DNA of 64,000 nucleotides from Sipunculus nudus (lineage: Eukaryota > Annelida > Sipuncula > Golfingiida > Sipunculidae). The notes beneath the pieces are model-generated. The model was not told the DNA's origin. It was given only the letters and a program-made list of their open reading frames with translations, and did no database searches. A program made the position numbers and the translations under genes. The DNA lies in contig CM049315.1 of NCBI GenBank assembly GCA_026874595.1, positions 7,252,664 to 7,316,663 of the forward strand, read 5' to 3'. Of this stretch, positions 23,738-61,540 are shown one piece after another; position 1 is the first letter of the stretch, and the number at the start of each line of letters is the position of its first letter.

Positions 23738-23785
23738 TTAACTGGTGGTTGATCATCTCTTGTTTTTTTGTTGGTTGTGTAGATG
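23738..23785 (+). CDS. Gene A signal-peptide exon
   Basis: The acceptor TTATCGTTTCAG and donor G|GTAAGT frame 48 bp reading NWWLIISCFFVGCVD, a hydrophobic signal-peptide core. Gene B has an exon of exactly the same length, phase and position in the gene (47560-47607). The exon starts in phase 1, so the ATG lies in an unseen upstream exon. Confidence 0.7.
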
Positions 23786-26700
23786 GTAAGTGAAAGAGTT
23801 AAATGCAATTTGTTAATATTTAATGTTTAATTCTTCAGATATTTAAGCTGTCAGTGGCGGATCACTTACCCCCCCCCCCCCGGTTACATCTCTTTTTTTA
23901 TCTATTTATTTTCCACGTTATTCGTTATTATTTTACTTTTTTTTCAGAAATATTTTTTATTTCCTAGCAAATAAATGATAAATTTATCCACAGTTTATTA
24001 TACTGTAATTCATAAATTGAGGATATTAATGAACAGCTTTGGGAATTGCTTCATTAGTTAAGTGGGCATCCAAATATTACTATACTGAGAGGGGCGGTCT
24101 GTTCGACATTACACAATGCTGGGTCATAACATCGTGCGCCCCCCCCCCCATATAAAAAAATCACACTCGTCTATGGATGGATGACTTGCACACACACCAT
24201 CACCCACAAACACACACATATATATATATAAATCTTTTTAACGTCTGTATGACATATTTCAAATATTTATACTTAATTTCTTTTCAAATATATTACAATT
24301 AAGTATAAGGTTTTACAAAATAAGGTATTATTTTTCCAGTATAAGTTAATTCTAAACATGATTTAGATATAACATTTCATAGTAAACTAATCTATACTTA
24401 TATTAATAAATAGAAGTATAGATTAGTTTACTATGAAATGTTATATCTAAATCATGTTTAGAATTAACTTATACTGGAAAAATAATACCTTATTTTGTAA
24501 AACCTTATACTTAATTGTAATATATTTGAAAAGAAATTAAGTATAATATTTATATATTGCAAATGAAATATATTAATAAATAGATTTCATTTGCAATATA
24601 TAAATATTATTCCCTGAATAGTGGGGGGGGGGGGATGGTTACGTTGACCAACACTCCTTGCCTATAAGTGAGTATGTGTGTTTGTGTGTGTGCGTGTGTT
24701 GGGGGGGGGGGGGGAGTCCCCTTTATTAATGCCCCTGGACGGTCTGTTCTCGAACTAACGGTCTGTGCTCTGTTGAGGCCGGTGCGCTGCCAAGACCACA
24801 GGACAGGCAAAATGCAAAGTTTATCATGCGACTTGAACATATCAATTATCTTACCAAGAGGATTATGTTTACACGATGATATTTTGCAATTAATAAACGA
24901 AGATGCATGTAGACCAACGTGTTACAAACGATTGAATGTCTTGACTTTCCAGCTGATATCCTAATTATGAAGAAATGTGAATATTATAGCCGGTCACACG
25001 TAAACCCCATCCCATAGTTTGACAACGTTATGCAAAGACTTTCTAGAGAATAATAGTTCAGAAACAGTTAATCCTCATTTTTTTGTGAAAGGTGTTTCAA
25101 AATGTCCTCTTTACATTGCATATTTAAATTTTTTTCTCAATATGGGAGGGGGCCCCTACCCTCGACTGTTTATCTCTTATTAACTTTACAAATCCCTGGC
25201 TCTAGATTTTATTCTTATAGGTAAAATTAAAAAAAATATATATTTATATTTTTCATAGGGTGAAAATATATTACGTAATAATAATAATAATAATTAATAT
25301 ATTTATATTAACCAAGAATTAGCGCCCCCCCCCCCCCCCGGTTCTTGAGTTTCTGGATCCGCCACTGGCTTTAGATATAGCAAACAAAAATAGCGAAACC
25401 TAAATCGATGTCATGGTCACATCGTATAATGCTATTAATAATTTCAGGTAAAATACATTTATTTAAAATAAATATTATCCGGAAGAAGCTGTATTATTCT
25501 TACAAAGCTGTTATATTATTTCTTTGAGACTTAGAACGTAAACCCAATACACGCATATATTAATGTGGTGTGAGATCCGGGTCCAATGTGCATACACTGA
25601 CCTTATCATGGATTGATATTATAACTACTGGTTTATTAAAGGGAAAATGAAAACTATACTTTTTTTAAACAATTTTAGGGAGCTGTAAGTATTCTTTAAA
25701 AGGTCGCGAGTATGCTGGTACCAAAGACACGACCATTTCAGGTGAAAGATGTCAGCGATGGGACAGCCAGTTTCCACACAAACATTCTACTGATGTCAAA
25801 TACATCCCAGAAAAATATTTGGCTGAAGCTGCCAATTTCTGTCGAAACCCGGACAACGGCCGACGTGGGCCTTGGTGCTACACCATGAACCCCCAAAAAC
25901 GATCTGAACCATGTGACATCCCGATCTGCAGTATGAACAGAACATATCTATTTATTGAACCTTCCTGAGTATCCTTTAATGTTGATGTTGTGCCTTTTCT
26001 CATGTTTTGTCGATAAAGTATGAAGCAGTGTAAGTTGTATTTTTACTTAGTACCCTGCCAGTCTCCGAAACGCTACTGGAAAATAAAGGGCTATTTCTGT
26101 ATATATCTTTTATATTAATTATTTTAAATATTGTCAAGAAAAGGTCCATTAATATTACATGTTGTGTAAAATATTATTCATTTGGATAATCATTTCAAGA
26201 AAAAACAACAGTATATTCACCAGAGAGCCTTCGGAGGGAATACCTTTGTTACCAGAAGTCTCTCAGTTCATTTATCTGATAAAAACCAGGAACTCTGGCA
26301 CGCTTGACACGTATACATATGAACAAATTATCCCTCAACAACCATGCTTTCTTACGCAATAGATATAAGGAAAACTAGAAAATCATATAAAAAATTTACC
26401 GAAGCTTTCCATTTTTCGCCCATTTTCCCCATTTTTCAGACTGCAAAACCTCTGTGGCTGGCCATGGATATTTGGGCACAATCAGTCACACCAAGAGTGG
26501 CTTGCCATGTCAGAGATGGGACAAACAGGTTCCGCATCCTCATCGCTACACAAAGCTTTCATATTTCCCTGACAGGAGCATAAAAGATGCAAATAACTAC
26601 TGTCGTAATGGAGAAAACGAGAAAATGCCCTGGTGCTTCACAGTTATGGTGGCTAAAAGATGGGATTACTGCTGGGTCCCCATCTGTGGTAAGGTTAATT

Positions 26701-27940
26701 CTACTTAAGAGAGGATTACTGCTGGGCTCCATCTGTGGTAAGGTTAATTCTACTTAAGAGAGGATTACTGCCGGGTCCCCATCTGTGGTAAGGTTAATTC
26801 TACTGAAGATGAAATTACTACTGGGTCCCCATCTGCGGTAAGGTTAATTCTACTTAAGATGGAATTACTGCTGGATCCCCATCTGTGGCAAGGATTTTAG
26901 TATATATATAAATAAAACGAATAAACGAATTTGTTATAACTTAATATTTTTCAGAACGTGCAGTAACTTATGTAATCAGTCTTTCTATATATGGTAACAG
27001 GTCTCCATGGTTTCCTCTTAATAATATTATTATCCTACCGATATTAGCTTGTACTCCAGACCATTTAGGGGTTAAGTATATTGGGTCCATAAATGTGACA
27101 AAAAGTGGGATACCATGCCAACCGTGGAGGGAACAGACGCCTCACAAGCACGGATATTTTGACCTTGAAGAAAGTGGAAACGCGTGTAGAAACCCTTCAT
27201 ATGATCCTAATGGCCCCTGGTGTTATACAATGGATCCTTTGGTTGAAAAAGAAAATTGTCACGTGCCGCCCTGTTGTAAGTTGATATCTTTATAATGTTA
27301 TTGCTGTTATATCTTGCAAAATGATAAATCTTATATTTGCGTTTTTAAACTTGTGTTGCAGATGTTTAAAAATGTATGCAAAATAATTCCAAGTCACTTG
27401 AACCAATCCAAGTTCATTGTTCTTTCGCATTTTCAGTTTTCAAAAAGCAAAGGTACGATTTTTTCAATGGAAATACTGAAGGTATGTATATTTATAATGT
27501 GTTCGATTTAGACGTTTCGTATAATCTTTAAATATCTGTTTCACGATAGGTTCAGCATGTAATGTATACACATATTGATGTAAAGGTTCTTGGCATTTAT
27601 TTGCAAATGTCCTTGTCCAAAAAAGTTACTTGTCCAGCAGATTTAAAAAAAAGGACAAATGAATATTAGCTATGACCATTATAATATGACAATTTAATAA
27701 ATAGAACCAGGGTATTTTTTCCTCCTTCCCATGATGCTCTCAAGCAGATGTTACGAGTATGTTGAACGGGTTAAATATTACTGTACCCAAGACGTTTAGC
27801 TTTTGGCAGACGGGATTTAACTTTAATATAAAACGGTCACTCATTTGAGCTTCACCATTCTTTGAGGCTGAATGTATAAAATATCAACTATTTTCTTCTG
27901 TACAAATGAGTGAATTAAAAGCGTAGAATGAAGTCCATAA

Positions 27941-27998
<58 letters not shown>

Positions 27999-30900
27999 AC
28001 ATGAAATAAGACATAATGTATTATGATAAATAAAACATTGCAATAATGGTCATATTGATATTGTGGTATTATGGTAAAGAAAGAAACTGAAATAGATTCT
28101 TGTACTGAGTACGGCATATGGAGATCCTACAGCCTGTCATGAATAGCTCTCGCCAATTTCAAAGATTCCTCAAAGAATTTCTAATAAATAATATCGGTTT
28201 GTGTGCCATAAATGTGAAAGACAATTCGAAGACAATATATTTGTAGCTTGGTGGGGAAAACGTAGGTGTAACCTAAAAGCAAATTTTGATTTTTAATTCT
28301 CTTCAGATCTTTATTGAGGGTTACTCTCAGTGATCAGGGAATCGTCCAGTTAGTAAATCAGCATACTGACTGACCTCCTTTCTTAAAAGATATTTTAGTC
28401 AAAACACAAACAAGTTAACACAAGTAGAATATTATGCATTTTATTTTTAAATTAAATTTACCATGTCCAAAAAGGATGGAATCATTTCTGTTAATTGATT
28501 TGTGTTCAGAGCAGTAACAAATACTATATTCGTCATATAAATTATTAACCTTAACCTACAACTCAGGAGCAGACGAATAACAAGCATTATGGATGGTTTT
28601 ACCTAATTTTTAATTTTTTTTTACTCCATCAAGAATGCAAGAGGAACCGAATGGGTACAGAATATCGTGGAACTCAGAGGAAAACGCATGCTGGCATAGC
28701 GTGTCAGAGATGGGACAAACAGTATCCTCACAAACATCCTTATAAAGATGCCACAGACTTTCCAGACAGCACTCTCAATGAAGCCGCTGATCACTGCAGG
28801 AACCCTGACAATACTCCCACGGGACCATGGTGTTATACAGTAAACTTCAGAACCAGGAGACAGAGCTGTATAGTTAAGCCTTGCCGTGAGTATATTCACA
28901 ACAGATCCAAACAATTAATATAACACTGTGGCAATGGTCCTCGGCACGTGTATATTAGGTATTCTTTACTCTGTCGCAGACACCGTCAAAAGGTATGAAA
29001 GTGATATGGTTTTATCATTTATTAAATAATATGGTAGCAGATTGACTCAAGCACTTGTTGAGCAAGAAATAGACATATAGTTTTCGGTCTTCAACAGGAC
29101 TGTAATTATTGTATAAACGGTCTACCAAAATATTACTAATGTCGAAGGTGTATTTATCTTCGAAGCTTGCACGTCTACCAGACCCGGCTTAGATTTCGTT
29201 GGGAAAATTTCAATGACCCGTTCTGGGCATTTCTGCCAAAGATGGGATGCCCAGAGACCCCATCGACATGTATATAACGAGTCAGAATATTTCCCCGATG
29301 CTACGGTGGAAGAAGCTGGAAATTACTGCCGGAACCCAAGCCGGAACCTCTTGGGGCCTTGGTGTTTCACGATTAACTACCAAACGCGATGGGATTTTTG
29401 TCAAATACCTTTTTGTGGTAGGTCCTATAGACCGAAAAAGTAAACCTTAATATATATGCTTTCGCTAAATAAGCGTTAAAATGCGGATATAAATAACGTA
29501 CTTCCACATCATATTTAATATGCCAAATGATTCATTTTATATATGAGCTTTTAATCTTTCAAACCATGTAAATATAATCAGAAACCCCTCAATAACTGAT
29601 GTAAATGAGACCATTATAAGTATTTAACGGTCAGAATGTAGTATTACTACACAAGCAACAGATAAGAAATGTTTCCTTATAAAGCCTTGCCTTTTATTTG
29701 TGCCTGTACAATGTTATGTTGATAAATAATTGATTTAGCGTATTCACCTTTCTCCCTCTCTGCAGGTAGTGGTTTTTTAGAAAGCAAAACAGACACAGGT
29801 ATTTCGTAGATTTTCGTGTGTTGATAACAAATTATTTGACCACGACCAACATAAAATAACGACGGTTACAAACAAGGAAGATATTACATTATGCTCCCCC
29901 TTGACTTATAGATGAGTAATATAACATAACATTTTAAAACTTTGTATATAAAGTTTATATCAAGTATTGAAACAGATCACCCCGAGAACTCTTTATTTAT
30001 ACCAACATACGTTTACCTTTGTGTATATATATTTCTTTACAAGACAAAGAGGAATAAGCAGCCTTTGATATGATACCTTTTTCTTCTACAGCAATGTCAA
30101 CCACAAATCAAGGATTTGGTATGTCCTCATGTACATTTCATATGAGCTTTTAGACGAATAATATGTGGATCTTGATGTATTGAATAATATTTTATTTGGA
30201 TTCATGAAAATATTTGACATATAAAATATATTTTATATTTGTATAATTATAGGCAAGTATTATATTCCCAAAGGAACTACACCATTATTAGAAATTATAA
30301 CTTTGCACGCAAAAAGAAGGATAACCAAAGATGGTATGTTCTTCTACTTTCTTTTATAGTTAATGCATGAAACATATCCCTGAACAATTTTGGCTGTAAG
30401 GCCATTAATATAAGACTTTCTAATACAATATTTCGAACTAACCCTCCTCATACCAATACTCTCAGAAAATTCCCAATGGTACTCTATTTGGATACTAATT
30501 TAAATATACATATTCTGCATCTCTTTTATGTAGTTCCGAAAACCACCACATCTGTGACAACATTTACAAAGACCTCTCTTACAGAAAAAGGTATAGTGCT
30601 AATAGGAACAACACGTTTATTTAAATATTCTGGCATATTATATATGACATATTATCTAAAATATAACGACGTGATCCAAAATGACAGAAGAATCGCTGTT
30701 CACATATCATGAAGTAATCCCGGTGTTATCAATCCCCTTGATTTTTTACACACATAAGGTGATCTGAACTTCATTTCCGTTTATATTAACGACATTTTCC
30801 AGATATTACCAATGACTCTCCAGTCAATAGAAGCTCAGAAGAACTGGCAACACATCGGTTAACAACAATCGCAACATTCACGACTTTGTTCACTACAACA

Positions 30901-38550: not shown

Positions 38551-38594
38551 AAGGATCAAGAGATCAATCAGCAGTACTTCAAATATAGGCATGG

Positions 38595-38836
38595 AATAAA
38601 GCCATTCAGAGGGCTTGTGGTTATTCTCTGTGGATGGGATGCTAGTGTATCTTTCTATTTATGTTACAACCGTTTCGATGGTTAAAGTGGCATACGGAAA
38701 TTTTTTATGTTAAAGAATGGATTGGGTCTGCTTTAACAAGGTTTGGCAAATCTGTTTGATATAACTGATCTATTGTGGACTGTTTTTAATGATGTACAAA
38801 TAAATATTGTATGGTTACAGGATTACAACGAATAAA
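38595..38836 (+). terminator. Gene A 3' UTR with three poly(A) signals
   Basis: AATAAA at 38595-38600, 38799-38804 and 38831-38836, all within 290 bp of the stop codon. Confidence 0.65.
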
Positions 38837-38849
38837 TGGAAAATGTTCA

Positions 38850-40030
38850 GTGATAATATTTGGATCGTATACTACTCCTTATTTTGGATGTTATGTATAT
38901 TTTTATTTTGGTGGGAGTGTGTTTTATGAAAATGTCTGACATCAGTAGACGCAGATAATTGACAAATTAGCATGGAAATGGAGTGTTTTCTAAGTTCTGC
39001 ACCAGCTTTTTATATGATCAATATTTTATACATTCCTTCAACACTGCCAGCATTTCTTGTTCACCTCTCCACATAGCTATGTAGTGATATGTCATACAAA
39101 TTGACAAACCTCCCATCTGTTAAACCAAGCATACCTTGAGTTATAAGGACAAGGGAGCTAAAGTTCAGTTCTCCTGCTTGAAGTATGAATAAATCTATGG
39201 AATTTGCCCCTATATCATATCATAGGTAAAGTATTGTTCACATTTAAACCAATAAAAAGCCTGCGAAAATTGAAAAGATTGATAATCATGGAATCCAAAT
39301 CCTCTATCCCGAAATAACGAATCTAAACATATTACCCTTATCTGCAACCATAGATAATAAAGGCTGTACATAAAACATTATAGTATCATTACAAAAGGAT
39401 TAATGGTCACGTCGTTATATTTTTATCATTTTTACCTTTACCCAAATCATGAAGAAGTCTTATTATAAGCAATGGATAGGCCAACCTTCAATACAAAGGA
39501 TAAAACATGGAATCTCCGGTAAACCGTTCGTATAAAAATGTAATTTTCTAATACTAGTCCTGCCTATTAGGGATTGGATGAAACAAAAAAAAGTAAATAC
39601 TTTATAGACTTTAAATATGGCATGTTTTTCATTTAATTTAAGATAAATACGATTTTTTTAAATTTAGTTGACACTGCACAAGAACATACACATTTATAAC
39701 CGACAGAAACATAAACACCTAATGGACAAACGGTGCTTGGTATGATATACATGACACCTAAGTTCACTAATGCTCTCTTTACCCATTGTAAAACTGGATT
39801 GCTCGACGCGATGCAGGTTTAAATATATGTTACCCAGTGTGCAAGTTTGGGTTGCCACTAATAGATTCATTGAATGCAATAGGAACGGGAAAATTGTACA
39901 TTAAATCAGTCGTTGAATATGGGTTTGTGGGATATCAATCAAAATGTCACACGGGGCAAGATTTTATTATAGTTGACCTGATACACATCCAGGGAATTAA
40001 GTATTGATCAATTCCCCCGAGAACTTTAAA
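38850..40030. other. Intergenic between gene A and gene B
   Basis: AT-rich; no exon-like segment or repeat family was recognised. Confidence 0.5.
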
Positions 40031-40039
40031 AAATACCTC

Positions 40040-40046
40040 TATATAA
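40040..40046 (+). promoter_or_regulatory. TATA box of gene B
   Basis: TATATAA lies 60 bp before the ATG proposed at 40100, so transcription should begin about 40070, giving a 5' UTR of about 30 bp. Confidence 0.5.
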
Positions 40047-40099
40047 CTTGTGTTGCACTTTCATTGCTACTGTGCTAGTTGGAACGAAGAAATGCAGAC

Positions 40100-40103
40100 A
40101 TGA
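40100..40103 (+). CDS. Gene B first coding exon (ATG plus one base)
   Basis: GCAGACATGA|GTAAGT: the ATG is followed by one base and a strong donor, exactly the phase the signal-peptide exon at 47560 needs. Joined they read MRGLVCFFMAVGYSYAQ, a good signal peptide. An upstream ATG at 40092 opens a three-codon ORF (MQT) whose TGA overlaps the main ATG (ATGA). The 7.4 kb distance to the next exon leaves doubt; this exon could belong to a lost neighbour. Confidence 0.5.
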
Positions 40104-43100
40104 GTAAGTTCTTGTTTTATGTACTATATATCAAAACTTTACTATTTTACCCATTATAAATTATTGCATGAATCATATTCATTATATAAGCATTGTGAAT
40201 AACTCCTCAGTTTGGTTTAAGCTAGAATCATGGATCATCAATTAAATCACGATTGCGGGCGTACTTTTTCATATCGATCAACGCTTAGCTCAAGCTCAAG
40301 CACGGGGAGAAAAAAAAATTGTGTTATTATTGCCGTAAACGGTCGATTAAGTATTCAATAAGTTAATCAGTTAAAGGGACCCGATCACCTATAAAGCATG
40401 TTGAAATAATACGAAAAATAAATTCTTTCCTTTCAAATAAGTTTGTACCTGTTCCCCTGAAACCATTTGCTTACTCCTATAAACGAGTGTTAAAAACAGG
40501 TGATCGGCGCGATCACAGATGTCAACATTAACACGTGCATCGTCTGGGCCACTACGTGTCAATCAGGAGACGCCCTGGCTGACTTGGCCAAAAATGTAAT
40601 ACATGTTCCGCTGGCTGAAACACACCGTGTTGCTGCTCAGAATCGGACCTCCGATCTCGCGGCCTTGTTATGGTAAACAGACACACGTGGACCGTGTTTA
40701 CCAACGTACAGAACAATAACAAGCTTTCAAACAGTCGTAAATGACGTACTTAGACTGTGTGCTGGAATGTTTTTGCAGGGGAATTTTGTTTAAAGCAAAA
40801 CTAAACTGATTGTGAAAAATAAAAGGCATAATAATGTCCCTGATTATGCACCGTTAAGCAAAAAAGAATGAATTATGGCTCACAGAAAAATATTCTTCGC
40901 CAAACTCTATACAAATATAATAAATGATAGAATGATGTATTCGAGTAGTAAGGCATTAAAGAGGATAATAACATCTAATGAATCCTTTCAAATATACAAA
41001 AAACATTTATTGGATTGACTTTTCTGTGTATTCATGTTTCACATTGTATAATCGAGAATACCAAAAAGATAATTCTATAAAAAGTAAATGAAGACATACA
41101 AAACAATAAGTTTAAAGACAAACTCTGATTCTTCAGAAGCTTGAAATATGTTACCGTGATAATAAACAGATGGTTTTTCATTTTATTTATAAAGTATTCC
41201 ATTTATGGGTGTCATTAATTTTTTCACCGACCATTCTACGGTGACTTCAATAATATTTGGACATATCCAGGTATTTGACCTGACTTTACCAAAGGTCTTT
41301 ATGGAACTTTGCTAGGTGAAGTATCCCAACAATATACCAATAAGATGAAATAGGTTAAACATATCCTCGATGAATAAATATCATGGTGTTACCTTACATG
41401 CAACGCGTAACCAAAGAGATAGCATTTCATAATGCACATAAACTGTATTTTGAAACTGGCCAGAACAGGTCTTTCCTCTCACATTATTGATACTCAGGAT
41501 TAGCCCGTATACTGAGATAAACCTCGGCATTTGTGTTGGTTTAAATCTGCACTGCTGGACCTTGTGTTAATAGCAACGGCCATCGTTCTTTCGGGCTTTG
41601 CGGTGTGTGCTCTTGCTGCCCGCATGGTGTGGTGAAACGTGAAAGGAGACAAACGTAGGATCGAGAGGAAAGAAAAAAGAAATAAGAAAGACGTGCTCCC
41701 CGTCACATTAAAATCAATCCTTCAAGTAGCACAGGCAAAGGTGACACAAAAGACTTTAGGCTTTGGCAGGATCAAGAAAATCATAAACTGCCTGTGAATG
41801 AATTTCTTTTGCTATATTTTCTACAAATCTATGCAGGAAACTATTTATGATGGTGGTATGTATGTTTGGAGAGATACGTTATTTCGTATAAGGATCTCTT
41901 GTTTTAATATTCAATTATTATTTTTTTAGAAGTGTGTAGAAGTGCAAAACAAACATATTTATTTTAAAACATATAGACATGCCATATAAGCCATTTCAAT
42001 ATTTTCAACCAGCACTATTCAAAAGGTATACCGCATCGAAGGTAAACATTACGACGCTGGGATATATGTATGGGAAAGGAACTGAAATTATGTTTTAGGT
42101 TCTTGGACAAACATTTTTTTATCCTGTGTTACGTAATTGTCCTTTATTTTGATTAAAGTATAAGTACCTAGTGACAGTGAGCTCTGTTTATGCATTGCTG
42201 AGATTTACAGCTAAGACCTAGCACGCTGACATCGTGGTGTTTATGTATGACCTTTTTTGACCTTAAGGATGAGAAATCTGAGTGTTTGACAGCCGGCCGC
42301 GTTACAGTATGAATGGATGAGAAATTAGAGTGTTTGACTGCTTGAGCTGAGTACGAAAGAATGAGAAATCAGAATTTGCTTCATTGACGTAAGACTCGAG
42401 TCCGGACTTGGACAACAGTTTATTCGTCTAATTACTCGAAGCTCCTGGACTAAGACTTGTACTCGAGAAATCAGGCCGAGTCCATTTCGATTCCAGTAAA
42501 AAAGAAGACTGTCACAAAAAATATGGGATTGTGCACGTGGATGAACTGCTAGCAAAATATAAAAAAATGATGTATCTTTTCTTTATTGAAGCCTCAGGGC
42601 TTGGAACAAATACGTCTGGATGGGATGTATCCCTAATATGCCCAACATTCCATTACGCGTTAATTATCTCTCCAGAATTAGTCACCTATTATTTGGTCAA
42701 AGCTCTTGAATCCAAATTTTATCATAGAATACGAAGACAAGAGCTGTGGATAATGAGGCGTATTTAATTGTATTATCTTTTTTAAAATATATATTCAGGA
42801 AACTTTTGTTTCTGGTCATGGTTTTCTGTTGAAAATAAATGTTCCTATAATAAAATGACTCGTGTAGATAGGATAAATGCTTATGCCCGAAATTTGTGTG
42901 TGCTTTTCCAATTTATTTAAAACATTCATCCTGCATGCCGGGTTCATGTAAGTTATAATGTTGCCGTTTACCATGATTAAAACCTATGGTATGTCACTAG
43001 AACTTCAAAGTGGTTCACTGACAAACAAAACAAGCGCACCATTATTAAGACATGCATAAGGGGAGCATTACACGATCTGTCAATTTGCTATAGAGAACTA

Positions 43101-46100: not shown

Positions 46101-49100
46101 GGTTTGGGATCAAGGTTGAGGGGAATGTCTATTTGTGCTGACACCTGACAAGGAATAATTGTGGAACGTTTTGTCAATTTACATTAGGGTATTATTCGTA
46201 CTTGGATTGTTTAAGTGTGCATTTGAGGGGAAAGATGTGAGAGCTATGACAACATTTACTTTATAATATGATTGTACCTGAATGCCTGATATAATATAAT
46301 AAAAATATCACAATGAAATAAAATGAAAAATGATAAAATATATTGAAATTACATTCGGGATTGCCAATGGTTCCCTTGAAGATTATACACCTTTACAAGT
46401 AAAGTCCAATTAGCATATCTACGAACCAGTGGTGTGTTTTTATATGTGTGCTATCCAGACCTGAAACGGTACTGCAGTTCATGTTTTATCTTTACTTGCT
46501 ATAAATAAACTAGGAAACATATATAATCGGGTTGTTTATATTCCATAGAGCAATACCTGAATAAGAGGAAATGTTAACCTTATTTGCACAGGATAAATCT
46601 CACACATAGTGGTCGAAACATTGATAATTTAAAGGAACATCATAAGAAATAGTTGTGTGCAGTGGAACCCCGCCTCACGACAATCCCACAATTGCGACCA
46701 ACCCCTCAATTACAACCACTTTGGTAGGTCCAAAATTGTAATTGTGGGGTCCCACTGCAGTTAAATAGAACTGAGGAGCACGAATCATCATGTCCATTCA
46801 CGATGGAACGATGGTAACTGTATTGCGGCTTTGACACCTTGATACTTTCCATTGGAATATTTTCAAGTATGTTTTGAAACTTGTTCTTATAGCATTGTAC
46901 TAGCTCCCATGGTACTACTCTTTCAACACACATGTCTCACCGTAATGTGAACGCCAACACCCGGATAGGTTTGCCATTCTAAAACGTTCAATCTAGCGCA
47001 GAATCAGCTGCCGCGGTTAGACCCGAGTTGCACCGTACATTGTTTCTTAACTAAGGCTAAAAAATTAGGATGGCATGTCTGTCGTCGCTTCAGGATGTCC
47101 ATTAGCTTCAAAGTGTTTTTATAGTTTAAGTAGCGACTTTATTCTTGCCCTCACACATATTCATAATATGCATGAATGAAACCAAATATATAAAAAAAGC
47201 TACTAAAGTCGCCGAAACACACTTTAACGAAATTAAAGAATATCTTCTGGATTTGAGAACACGAACATACGAGACACCAGTGCTTCAGGTGTTGTTTCAT
47301 AAGACATCAAATGTGACTTTAGATTTTGTTTCTTGCTAAATGAAAATAAACCAAATGCCTTATGCAACGGTGATTGAAATAAGCGTGAGCCCTGTTGTAA
47401 ACTGTCCAAGTCTAGACTTCTACAAATAATTTTGGACTCACAGCGTAGTGCATTAAATGGTAGGAAACAGTAATATTCTTGAAACTTATGTCTGCTGTAT
47501 GTACATTTTACTATTTTGGACTATAAAGAGTTATTGTTTGTACTATTAATACTTTCCAGGAGGACTAGTTTGCTTTTTCATGGCTGTTGGTTACTCCTAT
47601 GCCCAAGGTAAATTCGGTAAAATTTAGGTATGAGTTACCAATTAACAAATCTACGAATGGTAGAATAAGGGTAAATATTCATAATTGAACTATATTTATA
47701 ACCATTGTTTTTTTTCTGGTATTTGTCATAGCGACTCACTTTTGGCACATTCGGTAAAAATATTCCCTGCTCTTAACATGATAAACATGGGCCAATGTGC
47801 AAGAATGATCGAACAGGTTAGTTGATCTTGCGAATGGTGACCGATCATTCTTGTTTATAAAATGCCAAGTGATCATTGATATAACTTATTAAACAGATAT
47901 ATTTGATTTTATGAGTAGGATGTAAGTATACAAAAAATGGCAAAGAGTATGCCGGAACGCTGTCTCAAACTATTACTGGCGAAACGTGTCAACGTTGGGA
48001 CAGTCAAACTCCACACAGCCATGACACATCGCTGGATGATCTGCCTGATGAAACAAAAGAGGACGCAGCCAACTTCTGTAGAAACCCCACCAACCAGCCA
48101 TCTGGTCCGTGGTGTTATACTATGAACCCAGACCAAAAATATGAAAAATGTGAAGTTCCTTTCTGTGGTAAGCTTGTAGCACTTTAAAATATAGATTAAT
48201 ACGTCGCGGATGGTCAAAGCGACGATCTGTGGAACTGAGGGTCCTAGGTTCGATCCCCGTAAGCCTTGAACAGGCAAATTTGCTGCATTCTAAAACACCC
48301 TCAGATATAAGCTGTTTTACCCAGACAACTAGATATGAATTCAGGCCATATTATTATTATCCTTTTTATGTATGTGCCATTCTTGCATGAAAATACATTA
48401 TTTTCCTGTTAGCTTTACTATAAGAAATATTTGCATTGATTTGCATATTAAAATATTTTAAAGAATGTTTGAACATTTTGAATGTATCCGACTATTAAAA
48501 AAGTTATTAAAAGAGTCATATGGTTATTTTATCCACATCCAACAGAGGGGCAAATAACAGGCCATGATCTTTTCCTCTAAAACACATATACGGAAATGTA
48601 TTCTTCATGTTATTGAAAGTCAGCCGTAATGTTCACCTCGCCTAATTACAAACTAATATCACAATTAATTTATGTTATTGTTATTTTAATATCATCCCTT
48701 TATATATGTAACATACTTGCATGAAAATACATTATTTTCCTGTTAGCTTTACTGTAAGGAAAATAAATATTGATCTGACATTATTGAAAAATATTATGAA
48801 GAATATATCCGAGTATTAAAAGATGCAAAATAAATATATATTCGACAGAATGCATCCATACCAAAAACGGAGTTGATTATAGGGGGACAATATCAGTAAC
48901 GATGACAGGGATCAAATGTCAGCGCTGGGATGCATTTTCCCCACATGTTCCTGATATAAAAGTCAAAGACAGTTCGTTTCCGGAGGGTTCCAAGACAGCA
49001 GCTCACAACTACTGCAGAAATGTCCAAATGGCAGGAGAACAGCAAGCTTGGTGTTACACTATGAATTCACTGAAGAGATGGGAAGACTGCGCAATCCCAT

Positions 49101-52100
49101 TTTGTCGTAAGCATGTTTTGTATTTCTGAGGTATGGCGATAATCGGTGTGGCTTGCCTATTGTTTGTTTCTTTTTTTCCTGTGTATGGAGCGCTCGCCTT
49201 TGGTGGGACCGATTGTCAGACCATACAGATTCGAAGCCTCCAAAATATATTTTTTATACAGCAAGCATGAGGTTCAGGTCGTCGTCCTAATGGACCGTGA
49301 ATTCAATTGACCCTTGAGGGTATTTTGGAGGCATTATGTTCTGGTTTTGAAGAGGCAACATTTACGCGAAGAAGACATTGAAGATGACTCGGGTTAATAA
49401 TCAGCTTTGTTTAGCAACATCGTTTAAGTGAAAGCTTCCATCACTTCCCTTTGTGATTGATCCTTATAACTTTTTTAGGGCAATCGATAGGCCTAAACAG
49501 CCTTCCTGTTGATTATGTCCAAGTTCTTTGTCAGGGACCACACCGTCATTGGATGACAATGCTGTCTCTGTTAAAAAATAAATTCGAGCGAGTATGGTTC
49601 TAGTATGGAGTTACACGCAGCAGCTGCAGTTCCCGGGGTCTGCTTATCAGCCATCCCTGTTCTAGTCTAGGGACACAGTTACTGAAGTCGACCGCGTTAC
49701 TCTGCCTCTGACATCAGGACACAAGAAAACTTCGAGGGTGTGTGGCGTGTTGATATGAAATCCAAACAGCGTGTGAATTTGCATTTTCCGCCTTGTCTGC
49801 CTGACTTTATGTAGAATATAGTTCCCTCTCTTCCTTTTTATCGTCAATGTTTAAGATATATACACACTCGAGAGAACATATCAATACATTTCTAAGTTCT
49901 AGGATTAGACCAGGTTAATTTTTAAATGGATGGATTATTCATGCCTAAGACTTAAACATCTAGGAATTAAGCAAGATTTACATCTTATTTACTACGTGTT
50001 CTTTGAGTAGATAGTATTATGGTCTAGGTTTTTATTACCAGATACAATAGACCAGTAGATGTCATTTATTGCAATATATGACTTTGGAGTCCCTTTATTA
50101 AAAGGACGTCAGTTGGTAAATTGATTGATGGTTTACAGGTGAAAAAGTGTATAATGTTATGACAAAGGTTGCCGATGTTTAAAATGCTTAATTTCAGCTT
50201 GCTACAACGACCATTTTGGCAGAGATTACCTTGGGAATATATCAGTCACGAAGAGTGGTTTAATGTGTCAGTCATGGATTTCTCAAAGCCCTCATACGCA
50301 TTCCTTCAGGACTGATGTAAATAACATATTAGATGCTGGTCAGAAATGTAGAAACCCTTCCTTTGACCGACGAGGGCCATGGTGTTATACAATGGACCCC
50401 AACGTAGAGAAAGAAAGCTACAATGTTCCCACGTGTTGTAAGTAAATGTATTTATTTTATTTATATATTTGTCTTTTTGTGTCACATTTAACTTCCTATT
50501 ATATAAAACAACAATTACTTTTTGGAATGAATATGATATAAGATATAATTTCAATAGTTTGCATATATAGGAAAAAAAGAGTTTTCTTAGATTAAATAAA
50601 AGATTATGCATTTCTAATCCCAAAATTTGTTTAAAATTACACACCCTTTTTTATGTAGGCAAAGGGGGTTAAAATTACCATGATATATCCATGTCAATAC
50701 ATTTCAATAGATTTCAAGAAAATCGTCACAGAGGAATATGAATTCGACTTCAAAGGTATTACATTCGTAAATGACGAGTACTCGCAGGTCATTAACAGAC
50801 AGATAATTACGTACATACATTTGGCGTATACATATGTAGATACATGGACAGATATCTAGATGGATAGACGAAAGAAAGCAGATAGATGCGAACAAGCAGA
50901 TATAATGTGTTTGGTTTGAAATCTTGATCTCATACTTAAGTCACTTGTAGTTTTAGTTTATCATATTTTGAAAAACAAAATAAACCTTTATTTAATAAAA
51001 ATGCATAGCATGTAAGATTGACCGCGAAGGAACGAACTACCAAGGGACAGCATCCAACAGCGTAAGCGGTGATGCTTGCCAGAGATGGGACACTCAGTAT
51101 CCCCATAAGCACAGTTTTACAGATCCTGAAAAATTTCCAGACGTTTCTCTCTCAAAAGCTCAGGATTACTGTAGGAACCCGGACAAATCGGTCTCCGGAC
51201 CTTGGAGCTTAACAAGAAATACAAAGAAAAGACGTGAACCATGTCGCATTAAGGCTTGTGGTACGTGCAAAATTAGAATATTTCGAATTCTCCTTGAATC
51301 TTATACATCATACATTCTGGGACCCATTCTGTATTTTCTTACGTTATCTTGTTATTATGAGAGAGTCATATAAAAGGTCGAGGCCATGCTGAATTTATAC
51401 ATCATAGACATTTACTTAACAATGTGCCATAAAAAACAATATATGCCTCTGTTTATAAGCCCCGTTTCAAACAAGATCAGCACGCAGTAAATTCCTAAGG
51501 AATATCACTATTCTCAGTGCTGTAAGTAGGCAAACAATAAAGGATGGATTTTTAGACACTTTTTCCTAAAAGTCATTGCTAATTTATTGATATTTTCATA
51601 TGATCAAGGGGCAACATGATAACAACAGATGTTTGCAATCAGGTAAAATACCTAGACTCTTATGTTTTGTTGTTTTAAGTAACCACACTTTAAAATAAAA
51701 TCTCTTTCTGCAGCATGCAAAGTTACGAAAGACGGGTATGATTATATTGGAACCGTTTCAATAACCAGGTCAGGAAAAATATGTCAAAGATGGGATCTCA
51801 CATCACCACATAAACATAATATAACCAGCGCAGTGAATCTTCCTGAAGCTTTACTTTCAGAGGCTGAAAATTATTGTCGTAATCCTACTAGAAACCCGAC
51901 TGGTCCCTGGTGTTTTACTACAGATTTGAATACAAGATGGGATTTCTGTAATATTCCCTACTGCCGTGAGTAACGTTTTGCATGTTATCTTTGCTTGAAC
52001 GGGCAACAAGTTTTCAGAATGATACTAATAATAAAGTATCCGTACATTGGTATTTGTCCCCATCATCATTAGAATATCATATTACCCTGCATATATAAAG

Positions 52101-55100
52101 GGTAAGCAAATAGGTCTTCCATGTAGTTTTATCATCTGGAGTACCATATGTTTTCGTCATCATTTGAAACTGGTTTGACAAACGGTAAATTCTTGTGTGA
52201 GTAGAGTTCAAGATTTATTTATTATTTTTTGCATAGCATGAAGTAAATATGCATCCGTGTATTGTAGACAACAGCACTATACAGTTCTTCCATTTAATTT
52301 ATTTGACGATGAATCCTCCTGTGAAGTAGAATTTAAGGCTTTTGTGTTTGCTTAATTTAAAAATAGCAGCTTATACATGAACGTATTAAAACAAGAGGAA
52401 AGTTCTGTTTTGACTGTTTGACTGGCAAGTTTAATGGTGTGTTCAATTTATTTATTTAATAGTGAGGTTAGGCAGACTGGATTTAAATAAATATGTTAGC
52501 ACTTTTTTTGTGAATTGGCGACATGACAAGATCCAGATTTATTTGATATCGCACACTGATAAACGGAGACCTTTGTCTTTCAGGAAATATACCCATTTTA
52601 GAATTGTCTACAAAGACTCTCAGAGATACGCTCTCAGTGAAGCAAAGTAGGTGCAATATAATCACAGTGTGATTGTTTGCTGTCTAACTAAATAATAACG
52701 AATTATCAATTAACCAATAAACCAATTAAATAATAATCAATTTTACTCACTTTTAAATAATGCGTAAGTGGCTCTAATTATATAAGTCCTGACGCAATCT
52801 TTAAAAGTGAGTAAAACTGGTTAATATTTAAATGGTTAATTGGTGTTATTATATAAGAACTGGTTATAAGAAAGCACTAAATGTCACAGTATTTGAACCT
52901 GCAAGTTTGATAAGCAAATGTTAGTTTGTACAAGTCTTTACATTTCATAGGAGCAAACATGGACGTGGAAAGAACCACAATAAAACAACCTGCAGATTCA
53001 ATGCCAACATTGCAAATAATGAAAAGACCCTCGACAGATCCCTCAGTATTATCTTCAACGTCTCTGGCAAGCACCAACAGAGAACACATTACATATTTAA
53101 TATCAAAATTACACATGACCCAGAGGCTTACGAAAGTGTCCTCAGAGTTTCCATCAACATACTTGGATTCAACAAGGAAGATCGAGACAACAGATAAGTT
53201 TTCAACTTTACCAATTCAAATGGCCTCTACAAGCCGAGGATCCACACATATTAGCACCGTAATGGCCACAACATCTCAAGTTGGTTCTGCAACGTTACCA
53301 ACAACAGAAAGGGAAACGACTCTATGGGCTACATCTCAAGTTCCGAAAAGGAAAACACCAAAAGAGGACAAAAAAGGTTTCTCCTCGGGCACGGTTACAA
53401 CGCTGAAAAAAACGATAGGCGTCACAACACCACCATCTACATATGAAAAGTCAACTTCAGCAGAACAAACAGCACAGAGAGCAAATACATCCACTTCACT
53501 GCTACCAACAACGATAATTGCTTCGAAAACATTTTCAACCAACCAAAGTTTAAACTTAAGAAAATACACAACAGGATCCGATCCGCAGTCAAGTTTAAGG
53601 AGAACGATGATTGCCACCACAATGTCCACTACATATGAACGACCAGTCTTGGAAGAGGAAACAACTCAAGAAGAAGTGTCGGAAGAGGAAACTACTCCTA
53701 GGTCAATGTTGTCGACAAGGGAAATGACGACAAAGTCGCCAGCGGACCTAAGGTCAGCAATGACAGTTCTGCCAATATCAAATTTGCAGACCACACCACA
53801 AGACTGTCCACTCTACATAAACATCCAACAGCCCTAGCAAAGAAAGTGGATATATTATCACCACACTCGCATCGAGATTCAACACCGATAACCACGAATT
53901 CGCCCATCGCATTTCTTAATTTAACATTTATTACACCAGAAAAGACCACGACAACAGCATCGGCAAATCTAGCATCAACTTTAAGTACACAAAGGACTAT
54001 TTGGATGACAACTTATGACCAATTATCAAGATTATCGAGAACAAAAACGTCAGGAACCGTCTCCCTCACAAACACATCGCCGAGGGTGCCTACACATCCG
54101 CTAGCACAATCACCACGAGTTGCCCGAAACAATTCGGCAAGCTTACCTTCGACGGGATTAATTTCTACAACATCTGTATCTTTAGCAGTTTCAACAAAAT
54201 ACGGTAAGTTGTCTGACTTTCTGTTGCATAGCTTTATAATAGTTGAATATCGATTAGTAAATTTATTAATATCTTCAATATACTTTCCATAAATGAATCA
54301 ACTGCTCTTAATGAATAAATGCCGTCGTATTATCATTCTTATTATTTTGTGTAAGCTTACATGATATGCTGCAATAAAACTTCACAGATAGGCAAGAAAT
54401 ATAAATACAAGACAGAATTACCTAAAATCATTAACACATTAGAGTTTCCTTTAACTCTTAGAGATTAGTTTAAAGACCTGATAAGGTATGCTAAATCCAA
54501 CGGGAATAATTGGATATCAGGCTAGAGGCACAGGAGGTAAATACAGATGATGGGAATGCCCTTTGAAGCAGTATCGTTTACTAACTGTGGACAGGACATT
54601 ATACATAGTTTTGTTTAAAGCTGTCCAGCAATGGTTTTTTACAGGATGAGGAAATAAAAACACCATACCAATTGGCTCGAAACATGTATCCAAGAAATGT
54701 ATCTATCGTCGATAATTCATAAATGAATGAATATGATAATCTTAATAGACAAAAAGGCAGATCGAATCGTGGTAGAATAACCATTGACCTTTGCTCACTG
54801 TCAGACATGCTGTGACTGGCATTTGGCAAGCTGTAACTATAACCAGGGACTTACCCATGCATTTGGAAATGATCCATACCATAAATGAAGGTATCATAAT
54901 CACGTGAGATTTCTTAGTCCTTCTATTAATCTCATTTGAAGCAGCGGACGGTTATATAGCAGGTGGTATTCAGAGTACCGTGGGCCTAGAGAAACCACTT
55001 TATAGCGTGACAGGTAGCACATATTAAAGTTTGTTGTCAAAATATTCTGTAAAATAAACCATGGTATGAAATTATTTTTTTCCAGACCACACAAGATAAT

Positions 55101-61100: not shown

Positions 61101-61540
61101 GAAGGCTTATTGTAATTGATTTATATTGAAACATTAGCCATGTTTGGATGCACGAAACATCGTCAAAGTACTAGTTATCAAAAGATACAGCATTTAAACA
61201 TCTTTTTAAATAAGATAATAATATCTGTTAAATTAGAACCTTTCAATGAAGGTTCAGAAAAAATGTGTAAATATATTTATATATCACCAAACCTTGTTTC
61301 TAAAATCTGCTTTTTCAAGAAGGACCCTCGTGGTATTTAGTGACCATATCCGGCGGTGCGCTGTTGATTACGGCAGTGATTGTGTTCTTTAGCTGGATCA
61401 TCCGGTGCAACATCAAGAGGTGTAAACGGAATAAGCGAATTCGTCCAGCTCCATCAAGTTTAATTCAAGTAAAAGAGAATTCAAAGCTCCGTGCGAGTAA
61501 TCCGGGCAGTGAACGACATGCAGCTCAACACAAAAGCTAG
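40100..61540 (+). CDS. Gene B: tandem paralogue, five-kringle mucin-stalk membrane protein
   Basis: Same architecture as gene A: signal peptide, K1-K3, 15-residue linker, K4, K5, Ser/Thr stalk, membrane helix, short tail; about 1,080 residues. Each kringle matches its positional partner in A better than its neighbours by motif (K3: VEKE before C5 and a shortened loop; K5: RWDFC.IP). The stalk is mainly one 1.25 kb exon rather than many mini-exons. Odd features: K3 has Tyr for C5, K4 has Ser for C4, and the large stalk exon is one base short of an intact frame. Intron 1 is about 7.5 kb and contains a pseudo-exon related to gene C. The gene could be active with an assembly error, or be decaying; transcripts or reads would decide. 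Confidence 0.7.
41552..41790 (+). pseudogene. Decayed copy of the gene C membrane/tail exon, inside gene B intron 1
   Basis: The frame LLDLVLIATAIVLSGFAV then CALAARMVW matches LLDILSVVSAIFLSGLVVCS in the minus-strand exon at 63138-63415. A TGA at 41633-41635 interrupts it; homology goes on as GDKRRIERKEKRNKK, then shifts frame near 41685 (two extra bases relative to the intact copy) to RAPRHIKINPSSS, matching RTPRHHKIKPSQN. The DNA word GAGAGGAAAGAA is shared exactly. It lies on the opposite strand to the intact copy. The acceptor of the intact exon (GGTTCAG) appears altered here to GGTTTAAA. Confidence 0.85.
41850..43590. other. Gene B intron 1: no gene recognised
   Basis: Near 42390-42490 is a GAGTCC/GACTCGAG-rich segment related to those at 15300 and 19330. 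ORFs at 42325-42767 are short and unsupported. Confidence 0.4.
43594..44487. repeat. Three tandem units of about 298 bp
   Basis: Units start at TCGTTGACATTT 43594, 43892 and 44189 and are about 95% alike by eye. Each contains the palindrome-like AATATATATTATCATTTTGA and (TA)-rich AGATATAATGACACATATAT. An AT-rich ORF in each unit is kept only because the units are nearly identical. Confidence 0.9.
44592..45178. repeat. Two diverged tandem units, about 271 bp period
   Basis: GTGCAACGGACTTGACAAAA at 44592 and GTGCAACGGACTGGACCAAA at 44863 begin two copies that also share CAGATTTCTTTGGCATAG and AAGATCA(C/T)A(C/A)TGGTA(A/T)TTTT. Confidence 0.8.
45180..46655. other. Gene B intron 1: nothing recognised
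   Basis: AT-rich DNA without exon-like segments or clear repeats. Confidence 0.4.
46660..46757. mobile_element. 98-bp pogo/Tigger-like miniature inverted-repeat element
   Basis: CAGTGGAACCCCGCC at the left faces GGGGTCCCACTG at the right, a near-perfect inverted terminus of the CAGTGGAACC type known from pogo-superfamily elements. The inner arms (AATTGCGACC..., ...CAAAATTGTAATT) also pair loosely. Confidence 0.65.
46760..47555. other. End of gene B intron 1
   Basis: A 64-codon ORF at 47145-47339 shows no recognised domain or splice context. Nothing else seen. Confidence 0.4.
47560..47607 (+). CDS. Gene B signal-peptide exon
   Basis: 48 bp between ATACTTTCCAG and G|GTAAAT, phase 1 in and out: GLVCFFMAVGYSYAQ. 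The length and phase equal those of gene A exon 23738-23785. A cleavage after YSYA is plausible by eye. Confidence 0.75.
47919..48167 (+). CDS. Gene B kringle 1 exon
   Basis: 249 bp, phase 1; acceptor TTATGAGTAG, donor G|GTAAGC. Six cysteines: GCKYTKNGKEYAGT, GETCQRWDSQTPHSH, NFCRNPTNQPSGPWC, YEKCEVPFC. The GKEYAGT, CQRWDSQ, AANFCRNP and WCYTMNP blocks are shared with K1 of gene A. Lysine-site DXD is TNQ here. Confidence 0.93.
48203..48270 (+). mobile_element. tRNA-derived SINE head (A and B boxes)
   Basis: TGGTCAAAGCG at 48211-48221 fits the pol III A box and GGTTCGATCCC at 48247-48257 is a perfect B box, with spacing typical of tRNA-derived SINEs. No clean cloverleaf acceptor stem was found, so this is not called a tRNA gene. 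It lies in the K1-K2 intron of gene B. Confidence 0.55.
48361..48815. repeat. Intronic duplication, about 330 bp apart
   Basis: CTTGCATGAAAATACATTAT and TTTCCTGTTAGCTTTACT occur in the same order near 48383 and 48718, with related downstream sequence, inside the K1-K2 intron. Confidence 0.8.
48849..49106 (+). CDS. Gene B kringle 2 exon
   Basis: 258 bp, phase 1; acceptor ATTCGACAG, donor C|GTAAGC. Six cysteines: ECIHTKNGVDYRGT, IKCQRWDAFSPHVP, NYCRNVQMAGEQQAWC, WEDCAIPFC. As in K2 of gene A the CRNP motif is broken (CRNV) and Gly-Pro before the Trp is missing. Confidence 0.9.
49181..49240 (+). mobile_element. Possible second tRNA-derived SINE fragment
   Basis: ATGGAGCGCTCGCCTTTGGT then AGATTCGAAGCCTCC resembles the anticodon-to-T-arm part of tRNA-derived SINEs, with a B-box match GATTCGAAGCC. 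The A box is not clear. Confidence 0.35.
50198..50437 (+). CDS. Gene B kringle 3 exon (C5 replaced by Tyr)
   Basis: 240 bp, phase 1; acceptor TTAATTTCAG, donor T|GTAAGT. It reads ACYNDHFGRDYLGN, LMCQSWISQSPHTH, QKCRNPSFDRRGPWC, VEKESYNVPTC. Where K3 of gene A has ENCHVP this one has ESYNVP, so C5 is lost and C3 has no partner. CQSW replaces CQRW. The rest of the fold signature is intact. Confidence 0.88.
50711..50755 (+). CDS. Gene B K3-K4 linker mini-exon
   Basis: 45 bp between ATTTCAATAG and G|GTATTA, phase 1: FKKIVTEEYEFDFK. Same length, phase, position and FKK start as the gene A linker exon. Confidence 0.8.
51009..51260 (+). CDS. Gene B kringle 4 exon (C4 replaced by Ser)
   Basis: 252 bp, phase 1; acceptor AATGCATAG, donor G|GTACGT. 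ACKIDREGTNYQGT, DACQRWDTQYPHKH, DYCRNPDKSVSGPWS, REPCRIKAC. The near-universal PWCYT is PWSLT here, so C2 loses its disulfide partner. K4 of gene A keeps PWCYT. Confidence 0.88.
51714..51965 (+). CDS. Gene B kringle 5 exon
   Basis: 252 bp, phase 1; acceptor CTTTCTGCAG, donor C|GTGAGT. Six cysteines: ACKVTKDGYDYIGT, KICQRWDLTSPHKH, NYCRNPTRNPTGPWC, WDFCNIPYC. Matches K5 of gene A at CRNP(S/T)RN and RWDFC.IP. Confidence 0.93.
52584..52646 (+). CDS. Gene B stalk exon 1
   Basis: 63 bp between TTTGTCTTTCAG and A|GTAGGT, phase 1: NIPILELSTKTLRDTLSVKQ. Confidence 0.6.
52951..54203 (+). CDS. Gene B large mucin-like stalk exon with apparent frameshift
   Basis: Acceptor TACATTTCATAG, donor G|GTAAGT. 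From the phase-1 entry the frame is open for 295 codons of Ser/Thr-rich sequence (for example LPTTERETTLWATSQVP) to a TAG at 53835. The frame two bases on is open across that point and continues the same composition (LSTLHKHPTALAKKVD, SLTNTSPRVPTHPLAQS) to the donor, which it reaches in phase 1 as the gene requires. The exon is 1,253 bp, one short of a multiple of three. So one base appears lost (or two gained) near 53780-53810; no intron that would fix it was found. Charged EEETTQEEVSEEETT occurs near 53660. Confidence 0.75.
54204..55472. other. Gene B intron, no feature recognised
   Basis: AT-rich; ORFs on the minus strand (54599-55094) are short and without recognisable domains. Confidence 0.4.
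55473..58727 (+). repeat. Hairpin-ended 3.25 kb element in a gene B intron, seven 340-bp units
   Basis: It opens with the R1-type hairpin (TAGCTCAGCTGACTGAAAGT, CATCTGAGCTATAG) and GTCC run, and closes with CACCTGAGCGTCATGACCAA then TGGGTCACTTGTT, variants of the R1 ends. The body differs from R1: the phrase GCAGACTGGTGGCGCCACCT (or variants) recurs at 55811, 56157, 56500, 56827, 57168, 57507 and 57844, spacings 327-346 bp. A separate element is nested at 57873-58511. Confidence 0.8.
57873..58511. mobile_element. 639-bp element with perfect 12-bp inverted ends, nested in the 340-bp array
   Basis: GTATCCGCCAAA (57873-57884) faces TTTGGCGGATAC (58500-58511). The host unit is interrupted after CCACCTGTATTTTT and its expected continuation (TTTTTTCTCTATTTTTGAGA) resumes at about 58560. 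The interior carries CCGCCGCCGCCG, two GGTGGCGCCACC palindromes (58101, 58230) and two related halves (CACCTGCAACCATTTTTGCA at 57961 and 58239). Confidence 0.7.
58747..58806 (+). CDS. Gene B stalk exon 3
   Basis: 60 bp between GGCTACTAG and A|GTGAGC, phase 1: MTSRNSLTTRTKSSFSSRE. It starts 20 bp after the end of the large repeat. Confidence 0.6.
59013..59069 (+). CDS. Gene B stalk exon 4
   Basis: 57 bp between CACTTGAACAG and G|GTTAGA, phase 1: IETSDYPKSSPNRGYQTN. Confidence 0.6.
59481..59563 (+). CDS. Possible gene B stalk exon, out of phase
   Basis: Acceptor TTGTCATGCAG, then TWYAPLPNKVNSTISTLIDS and PRKKGRR up to donor AGA|GTAAAT. The length is 83 bp, one short of symmetric; including it would put a stop in the next exon, skipping it keeps frame. 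It crosses an A7 run (59548-59554), so a homopolymer error or a poison exon are both possible. Confidence 0.4.
59763..59837 (+). CDS. Gene B stalk exon 5
   Basis: 75 bp between TTTTGAACTGCAG and A|GTATGT, phase 1: VNQESEAGVSSEQLYLTDPQ then ATQD. Confidence 0.65.
60054..60083 (+). CDS. Gene B stalk exon 6
   Basis: 30 bp between TTTACATTACAG and G|GTATGA, phase 1: TRHSQNIQL. Confidence 0.5.
60445..60522 (+). CDS. Gene B stalk exon 7
   Basis: 78 bp between TTTAAAACAG and G|GTGAAT, phase 1: ENESHSVDSNSDVRDNKKKV then KGNART. Confidence 0.65.
60974..61027 (+). CDS. Gene B stalk exon 8
   Basis: 54 bp between TTCATTTTAG and G|GTAGGT, phase 1: ENNLPPSEKNSPKDHESR. Confidence 0.65.
61320..61540 (+). 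CDS. Gene B transmembrane and tail exon, with stop
   Basis: After acceptor CTTTTTCAAG it reads GPSWYLVTISGGALLITAVI then VFFSWIIRCNIKRCKRNKRI, a membrane helix followed by a very basic stop-transfer stretch, and a tail of about 40 residues ending SERHAAQHKS and TAG. Unlike gene A the tail is in the same exon. Poly(A) signals follow at 61803 and 62026. The helix and tail are not similar in sequence to those of gene A. Confidence 0.8.

Follow-up and report, generated by a model that had tools for sequence, protein, structure and literature searches.

Do two neighbouring arrays of five kringles in the genome of the sipunculan annelid Sipunculus nudus belong to a relative of plasminogen, or to a protein of another kind? 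Most of what is known about kringles comes from vertebrate blood proteases and a few receptors. The two arrays, here called A and B, lie in a stretch of 64,000 nucleotides (assembly GCA_026874595.1, contig CM049315.1; G000:C10:7252664-7316663; G+C near 34%), referred to below as the window, in a genome of 1.43 Gb with 17 large contigs of 61-111 Mb and with C18 to C22 each below 0.1 Mb. Our analysis, which works from DNA sequence, makes it reasonably probable that A and B are members of a large family of five-kringle type I membrane glycoproteins.

The ten kringle exons of the window form two K1-K5 arrays on the + strand (A, 25684-29416; B, 47921-51964), and all ten exceed the Pfam PF00051 gathering score of 34.3 (63.8-87 bits); each kringle is a single exon with phase-1 borders at both ends, in agreement with the initial annotation, which had placed five kringles in each of two neighbouring genes. 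K1, K3, K4 and K5 of A and B are reciprocal best matches at 52-57% identity (tblastn between the window halves), and K2 of A and K2 of B are not. The splice pattern AG/nnTGY...TGYn/GT (slashes mark the exon borders) is exact in 62 of the 70 kringle exons checked across 15 loci, compared with a background rate of about 6.5% per border taken singly; seven of the eight off-pattern exons are K1 exons with the AG one codon further out (two codons in locus h6), and the eighth is K4 of locus L037, which has a GC donor. Six half-cystines are present in eight of the ten window kringles, B K3 and B K4 having five, and the kringles and linker of A have no visible defect. The K4 exon of locus g7 also encodes six cysteines. 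Tandem Repeats Finder (TRF) detects a 50-bp unit repeated 4.6 times at window 26663-26893, where the 3' end and donor of the A K2 exon are tandemly repeated, and nine partial copies of a kringle exon 3' end with its donor lie behind K4 of locus L038 (L038:4613-5284); in these two paralogues the repeated exon ends have thus produced rows of donor sites.

The conserved 15-residue segment between K3 and K4 that had been proposed for the two genes proved to be general: a linker exon of exactly 45 nt is present in 15 of the 15 loci read, A and B included, with the consensus [YF]F[KR]K..T.VY.GD... or nearly so. In locus g8, which has no K4, the linker sits between K3 and K5, and in L037 its exon uses a GC donor. 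A pattern search found the linker in eight loci; the introns were then searched one by one for exons of matching length and splice sites, under relaxed rules for the linkers that came last. Leave-one-out scores are 12.8-34.1, whereas the best other candidate of the same length in those loci scores 3.1, a maximum that sets aside the linkers of A and B because both lie in one window. As a single motif both selects and scores the exons, this test is partly circular, and the independent support for the linker is its constant length and splice phase.

The two arrays belong to a much larger set. A census by three genome searches, with the best 150 candidates scored in each, yielded at least 179 kringle places in union; when places on one strand with gaps of at most 8 kb were joined, at least 31 clusters of three or more kringles resulted, four of which are longer arrays of another kind. 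Among the matches listed, 27 clusters are comparable to A and B, a figure that estimates loci and not working genes. Fifteen of the 27 were read, a non-random choice based on where they lie and how many hits they have. The order K1-K5 holds in each of the 15, and 12 have five open kringles, the others being g8, g9 (a stop in K3; K1 lies partly in the stretch read and has an open match in the genome search) and L039 (K4 broken, K2 cut). Members occur on at least seven chromosome-size contigs (C2, C3, C5, C10, C11, C15 and C17), and a third array, g3 (L012, C10:7346664-7356663), lies 31-36 kb past the right end of the window, so that the search for further copies beyond 64 kb, which the initial annotation had advised, was productive. 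The longer arrays, from which 12 kringles were read, include 24 kringle places in 54 kb at G000:C9:28894681-28948550 and 19 places in three clusters at C10:33326931-33386198 (L033, L034).

To place the kringles relative to one another, we used a tree of 67 kringles on 83 columns, comprising 52 family kringles from 11 of the 15 loci (L037-L040 left out), seven human kringles (plasminogen 1-5 and HGF 1-2) and eight of the 12 long-array kringles; with so few columns for 67 rows, many forks stay open. K1 forms one group (98/97) and so does K3 (74/93), while K4 and K5 need two changes each. One of the K4 exceptions comes from g3, where K2 duplicates K4 of the same gene (DNA 86.5% identical, flanks unrelated). 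Class profiles built from the eleven loci gave the kringle's own position as best in 17 of 18 complete kringles of the four further loci, and L038 K2 scored best as a long-array kringle. Since the kringles group largely by position, the ancestor probably already had five ordered kringles. The seven human kringles form a group of their own, apart from the positional classes (95/97, on few columns), which suggests that the shared number of five in plasminogen and in this family probably arose independently, in a tree that is short of columns. Descent from plasminogen's five kringles in order was considered and set aside, as the tree, on its few columns, gives it no support.

Divergence within the family is mostly high. 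A and B differ at 0.32 of nonsynonymous and 0.82 of synonymous sites (pN and pS, the latter saturated), most locus pairs are alike (pN about 0.3, pS about 0.8), and, with synonymous sites mostly saturated, only a few pairs allowed the ratio of nonsynonymous to synonymous rates (dN/dS) to be calculated. For B and the g8 locus of C3, which are the closest pair, dN/dS is 0.136 over 329 codons (0.11-0.18 per kringle), and in the 10 kb of g8 read their DNA matches only in and directly around the kringle exons and in a short stalk piece. The nearest relatives of B are g8, g4 and h6 rather than A. A recent local duplication of A and B was rejected, given the saturated pS and the nearer relatives of B on C3, C5 and C10:7.81 Mb. 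Judged by divergence, A and B are old paralogues, and the family as a whole appears old and constrained, with no recent burst apart from recent tandem copies at C10:35.96 Mb. The local tandem pair of the initial annotation therefore stands as to the adjacency of A and B, but not as a purely local expansion, with a third array nearby, the family on at least seven contigs and the closest copies of B elsewhere.

Exons that would complete a membrane protein accompany both arrays (Table 1). The B stalk has a combined serine and threonine fraction (S+T) of 0.35, compared with a mean of 0.16 and a maximum of 0.33 in 97 + strand frames of at least 60 amino acids, stalk frames included. The membrane exon of B has three matches in the genome, itself and two others, each lying 6-10 kb downstream of a K5 exon of its own strand: one at C3:2627871-2628050 (-), 52% identical and about 6.8 kb 3' of the g8 K5 (the stretch read behind g8 ends before this distance), and one at C10:39148702-39148881 (-), about 6.7 kb 3' of a K5-type match in an unread array. 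The membrane exon of A was recognized by its phase, its hydrophobicity and its B-like end. In g7 and g9, post-K5 sequence and a membrane helix share one open exon, in phase, 0.7-2.3 kb after K5, and the tails stop after about 16-20 residues if they are not spliced on. The recurrence of membrane exons 3' of kringle arrays elsewhere argues for one K1-K5-stalk-membrane gene, and exon phase together with genomic co-location supports the prediction that kringles, stalk and membrane exons form a single gene.

The initial annotation had also suggested an expansion together with a separate "gene C" near the right end of the window, which our results do not support. Gene C has nine genome matches including itself, and five of the nine follow a kringle array at a distance of about 4-12 kb on its 3' side and share its strand (6.549 Mb (-); 35.963, 36.034 and 36.056 Mb (+); and a relic behind A); three more are tandem copies behind the 35.963 Mb tail. 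Several of these tails are in phase behind kringle arrays, the arrays at 35.95 and 36.045 Mb being known from search rows only, and a scan of 60 kb on the 5' side of gene C found no kringles near it on its strand. A separate companion gene was therefore rejected in favour of a tail exon of the five-kringle family, and the Pfam match of gene C to TMEM100, at 16.8 bits, is far below the cut-off of 34. At G000:C10:35962586-35986258 (L031, L032), four gene-C-type tail matches are spaced about 7.8 kb apart; two 3.2-kb stretches read there are 99.97% identical, which indicates very recent tandem amplification.

Several observations weigh against the reading of A and B as members of a membrane-anchored five-kringle family. 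The K2 kringles are not one group in the tree and need four changes. The linkage of kringle, stalk and membrane exons is known from genomic DNA alone, and initiator and last exons were found for neither A nor B; the shared signal peptide that had been claimed is thereby reduced to signal-type exons in both. For A, the stalk consists of nothing more than several short candidate exons. In B the Ser/Thr-rich frame of the stalk runs to about 53770, and from about 53790 on a different frame is rich in these residues. A genome search at E 0.001 with the A membrane exon returned only the exon itself; of the relatives of the B membrane exon, the C3 match has an internal stop and the C10 match is weak (37% identity, E 3.7e-4). 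The g7 stalk is short, with an S+T of only 0.16, no convincing membrane exon was found in the stretches read behind g3, g4 and g6, and the gene-C-type tail relic behind A is broken. B combines its stalk frame break with two lost half-cystines. The stalk and membrane helix attributed to both genes are accordingly upheld for the B stalk and for hydrophobic exons in both, and weakened by the B frame break, the short candidate exons of the A stalk and the A membrane exon without a relative.

Some of these points fit other explanations. The one that survives best, though we regard it as unlikely, is that of mainly secreted products, kringle proteins resembling apolipoprotein(a) and bearing a mucin tail, with membrane exons that are alternative or decayed: the B open frame passes part of the stalk and then stops, the A membrane exon has no relatives, and no clear membrane exon follows g3, g4 or g6 in the stretches read. 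However, the membrane helices of g7 and g9 stand in an open exon soon after K5 and in phase, and C-type tails lie in phase behind several arrays. Quite improbable, in our estimate, is that the cluster is decaying, with A and B as pseudogenes, and that only other family members matter. The defects of B, the broken tail relic behind A and the state of the close copy g8, with K4 missing and stops in both its stalk and its tail, would agree with this; however, the reading frame is open in each of the ten kringles of A and B, the kringles and linker of A are intact to inspection, and the low dN/dS between B and g8 holds for each kringle. For B itself, decay is probable; otherwise it would yield a shorter, secreted product. 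Loss of a half-cystine in K3 and in K4 would leave the usual partner cysteine unpaired, and no plausible intron was found at the stalk frame change (53770-53800); the frame break may be an assembly error, which would not readily explain the lost cysteines. Highly improbable is a link to a plasminogen-like protease with a catalytic domain beyond the exons scanned, of which the arrays would be remnants or relatives, with the stalk and membrane exons as parts of other genes; for although there are five kringles as in plasminogen and A K5 finds its best solved-structure matches in plasminogen and HGF kringles (phmmer), no protease motif was found in the sequences searched (see below), human plasminogen kringles group together and not by position with K1-K5, and membrane exons of the B and C types also follow kringle arrays at other places in the genome.

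We return to the membrane-anchored family and to what its members may do. The motifs GDSGG, TAAHC and DSGGP were absent from all six frames of the window and the fetched loci, a search that left out the 101-base loci L041-L052 and could miss an intron-split motif. Pfam was run on 20 window frames, ten with kringles and ten others, without a wider domain scan; the ten non-kringle frames gave no family over the cut-off, and no Frizzled, kinase, WSC or CUB domain was found among the 20. Within this scope, the absence of an enzyme domain, as claimed initially, is supported.

Lysine binding by plasminogen kringles involves two acids (55/57), an aromatic residue at 64, a basic residue at 71 and an aromatic residue at 72. 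By ungapped residue offset, the full set is present in three of 70 family kringles (A K2 in a Glu/Glu variant, g7 K2 and L037 K5), three of 12 long-array kringles (those on C9 carry an insertion at the site, and the offset may undercount them) and three of seven human kringles. The count depends on the alignment, and the larger one is given: with MAFFT (52 family kringles) the two acids are found in g7 K2 only, and by offset (70 kringles) also in A K2, L037 K5 and L038 K3; g9 K1 and K3 and L039 K2 and K4, which are cut or broken, are left out, as is the missing K4 of g8. The basic-aromatic pair is kept in 12 of 15 K5, 10 of 14 K2 and 1 of 41 K1, K3 and K4 kringles taken together, and this difference by position suggests that the kringle classes have different conserved faces. 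Most family kringles are thus unlikely to bind lysine in the plasminogen way.

We propose that the protein consists of a signal peptide, K1-K2-K3, the 15-residue linker, K4-K5, a variable stalk, one membrane helix and a short basic tail. The stalk, Ser/Thr-rich in most copies where it is seen, is presumably O-glycosylated and would raise the kringle array, as a ligand-binding head, above the cell surface. An ancestral gene with five ordered kringles would have been duplicated to several chromosomes, with some copies now decaying. Because no enzyme domain was seen and the g7 and g9 tails have some 16-20 residues, the most likely role is that of a surface adhesion or recognition molecule, not of a protease or kinase receptor; and because most kringles should not bind lysine, the ligands are probably other proteins or glycans. 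As a more tentative possibility, which we hold with limited confidence, the family might be a large, dispersed cell-surface recognition repertoire derived from a kringle ancestor independent of plasminogen's, in which K1 to K5, mostly freed from lysine, would each offer a binding face of their own, with a 15-residue hinge and a mucin stalk, and would act in the recognition of self and non-self, of microbes or between cells, as repertoires of SRCR proteins or lectins do in other animals.

How does this family compare with known kringle proteins? It shares the kringle fold, with clear similarity, and the tandem arrangement with plasminogen, HGF and apolipoprotein(a), plasminogen also having five kringles; plasminogen and HGF, however, have a C-terminal serine-protease or protease-like domain, whereas no protease motif appeared here in a search confined to motifs. 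Unlike all three, the family has stalk and membrane-type exons, and the lysine-site residues of plasminogen and apolipoprotein(a) are mostly missing, with A K2 meeting the Glu variant. Vertebrate plasminogen kringles are split over two exons, whereas the kringles described here are single exons. ROR (one kringle with Ig, Frizzled and kinase domains), Kremen (one with WSC and CUB) and PIK3IP1 (one alone) resemble the family as membrane proteins with an extracellular kringle, but their single kringle contrasts with five per array. The exclusion of plasminogen, apolipoprotein(a), HGF, ROR and Kremen in the initial annotation is thus supported, by five kringles per array and, for plasminogen and HGF, by a separate group in the tree and the lack of a protease motif in the sequences searched. 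Database entries named plasminogen-like or apolipoprotein(a)-like presumably exist for such proteins. The literature searched, with most subscription papers and annotated mollusc proteomes outside it, contains no description of the family, which is in keeping with the earlier suggestion that it might be new; the five-kringle family is apparently undescribed. Annelid and mussel MACPF/apextrin-like proteins carry a kringle (PMC2762978, PMC4581086) and are, as here, kringle proteins of lophotrochozoans, but the annelid protein joins its kringle to a pore-forming MAC domain, which was absent from the window frames tested. Among the recognition families that are expanded in invertebrates, SRCR proteins (PMC10855680) likewise form many paralogues of one repeated-domain extracellular protein in a single genome; they differ in their domain, and the array here is fixed at five, with kringles that look constrained.

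Other repeats in the window include a 339-bp minisatellite (6.6 copies; 55622-57872), a 298-bp triple repeat (43592-44487) and, seen by eye, a long inverted repeat upstream of A K1 (24261-24560). Similar open frames in both orientations, also noted by eye, lie 5' of A (10388-10705, 12931-13284, 18236-18672 and 18948-19199) and are probably dispersed repeats.

Table 1. Positions of the exons assigned or proposed for arrays A and B and of gene-C-type tail exons (window coordinates).
Feature	Position	Strand	Remarks
A signal-peptide-type exon	23738..23785	+	hydrophobic; 48 nt, phase 1-1; length and phase as in B, g4, g8
A kringle 1 exon	25679..25930	+	Pfam Kringle 87 bits; splice borders
A kringle 2 exon	26440..26688	+	74.7 bits
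A kringle 3 exon	27048..27275	+	63.8 bits; middle loop shortened
A K3-K4 linker exon	27437..27481	+	45 nt; FFKKQRYDFFNGNTE
A kringle 4 exon	28634..28885	+	73.6 bits
A kringle 5 exon	29166..29417	+	75.5 bits; phmmer matches to plasminogen, HGF kringles
A candidate short Ser/Thr-rich stalk exon	30534..30590	+	S+T 0.56, phase 1-1, moderate splice sites
A putative membrane-helix exon	37793..37935	+	hydrophobic, then basic residues; ends ...VIQ before gtaaaa
Gene-C-type tail exon relic behind A	41552..41772	+	frame broken
B signal-peptide-type exon	47560..47607	+	GLVCFFMAVGYSYAQ; resembles g4 DLLCLLAIVGYTYSQ, g8 ELLYLFIAVSYTYAQ
B kringle 1 exon	47919..48167	+	81.2 bits
B kringle 2 exon	48849..49106	+	66.2 bits
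B kringle 3 exon	50198..50437	+	64.1 bits; without fifth half-cystine
B K3-K4 linker exon	50711..50755	+	45 nt; YFKKIVTEEYEFDFK
B kringle 4 exon	51009..51260	+	77.2 bits; without fourth half-cystine
B kringle 5 exon	51714..51965	+	84.2 bits
B Ser/Thr-rich stalk exon	52951..54203	+	frame break about 53770-53800
B putative membrane-helix exon	61320..61468	+	hydrophobic, then basic residues; ends ...LIQ before gtaaaa
Gene C, orphan copy of another tail-exon type of the family	63141..63497	-	

In conclusion, a family of perhaps 27 loci, 15 of them read, with five kringles, a linker of its own and an apparent membrane anchor would show that multi-kringle arrays were also elaborated along a line apart from plasminogen and took on a different use. 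The K1-K5 order together with the linker provides a clear signature with which to trace the family across lineages and to look for what its members bind.

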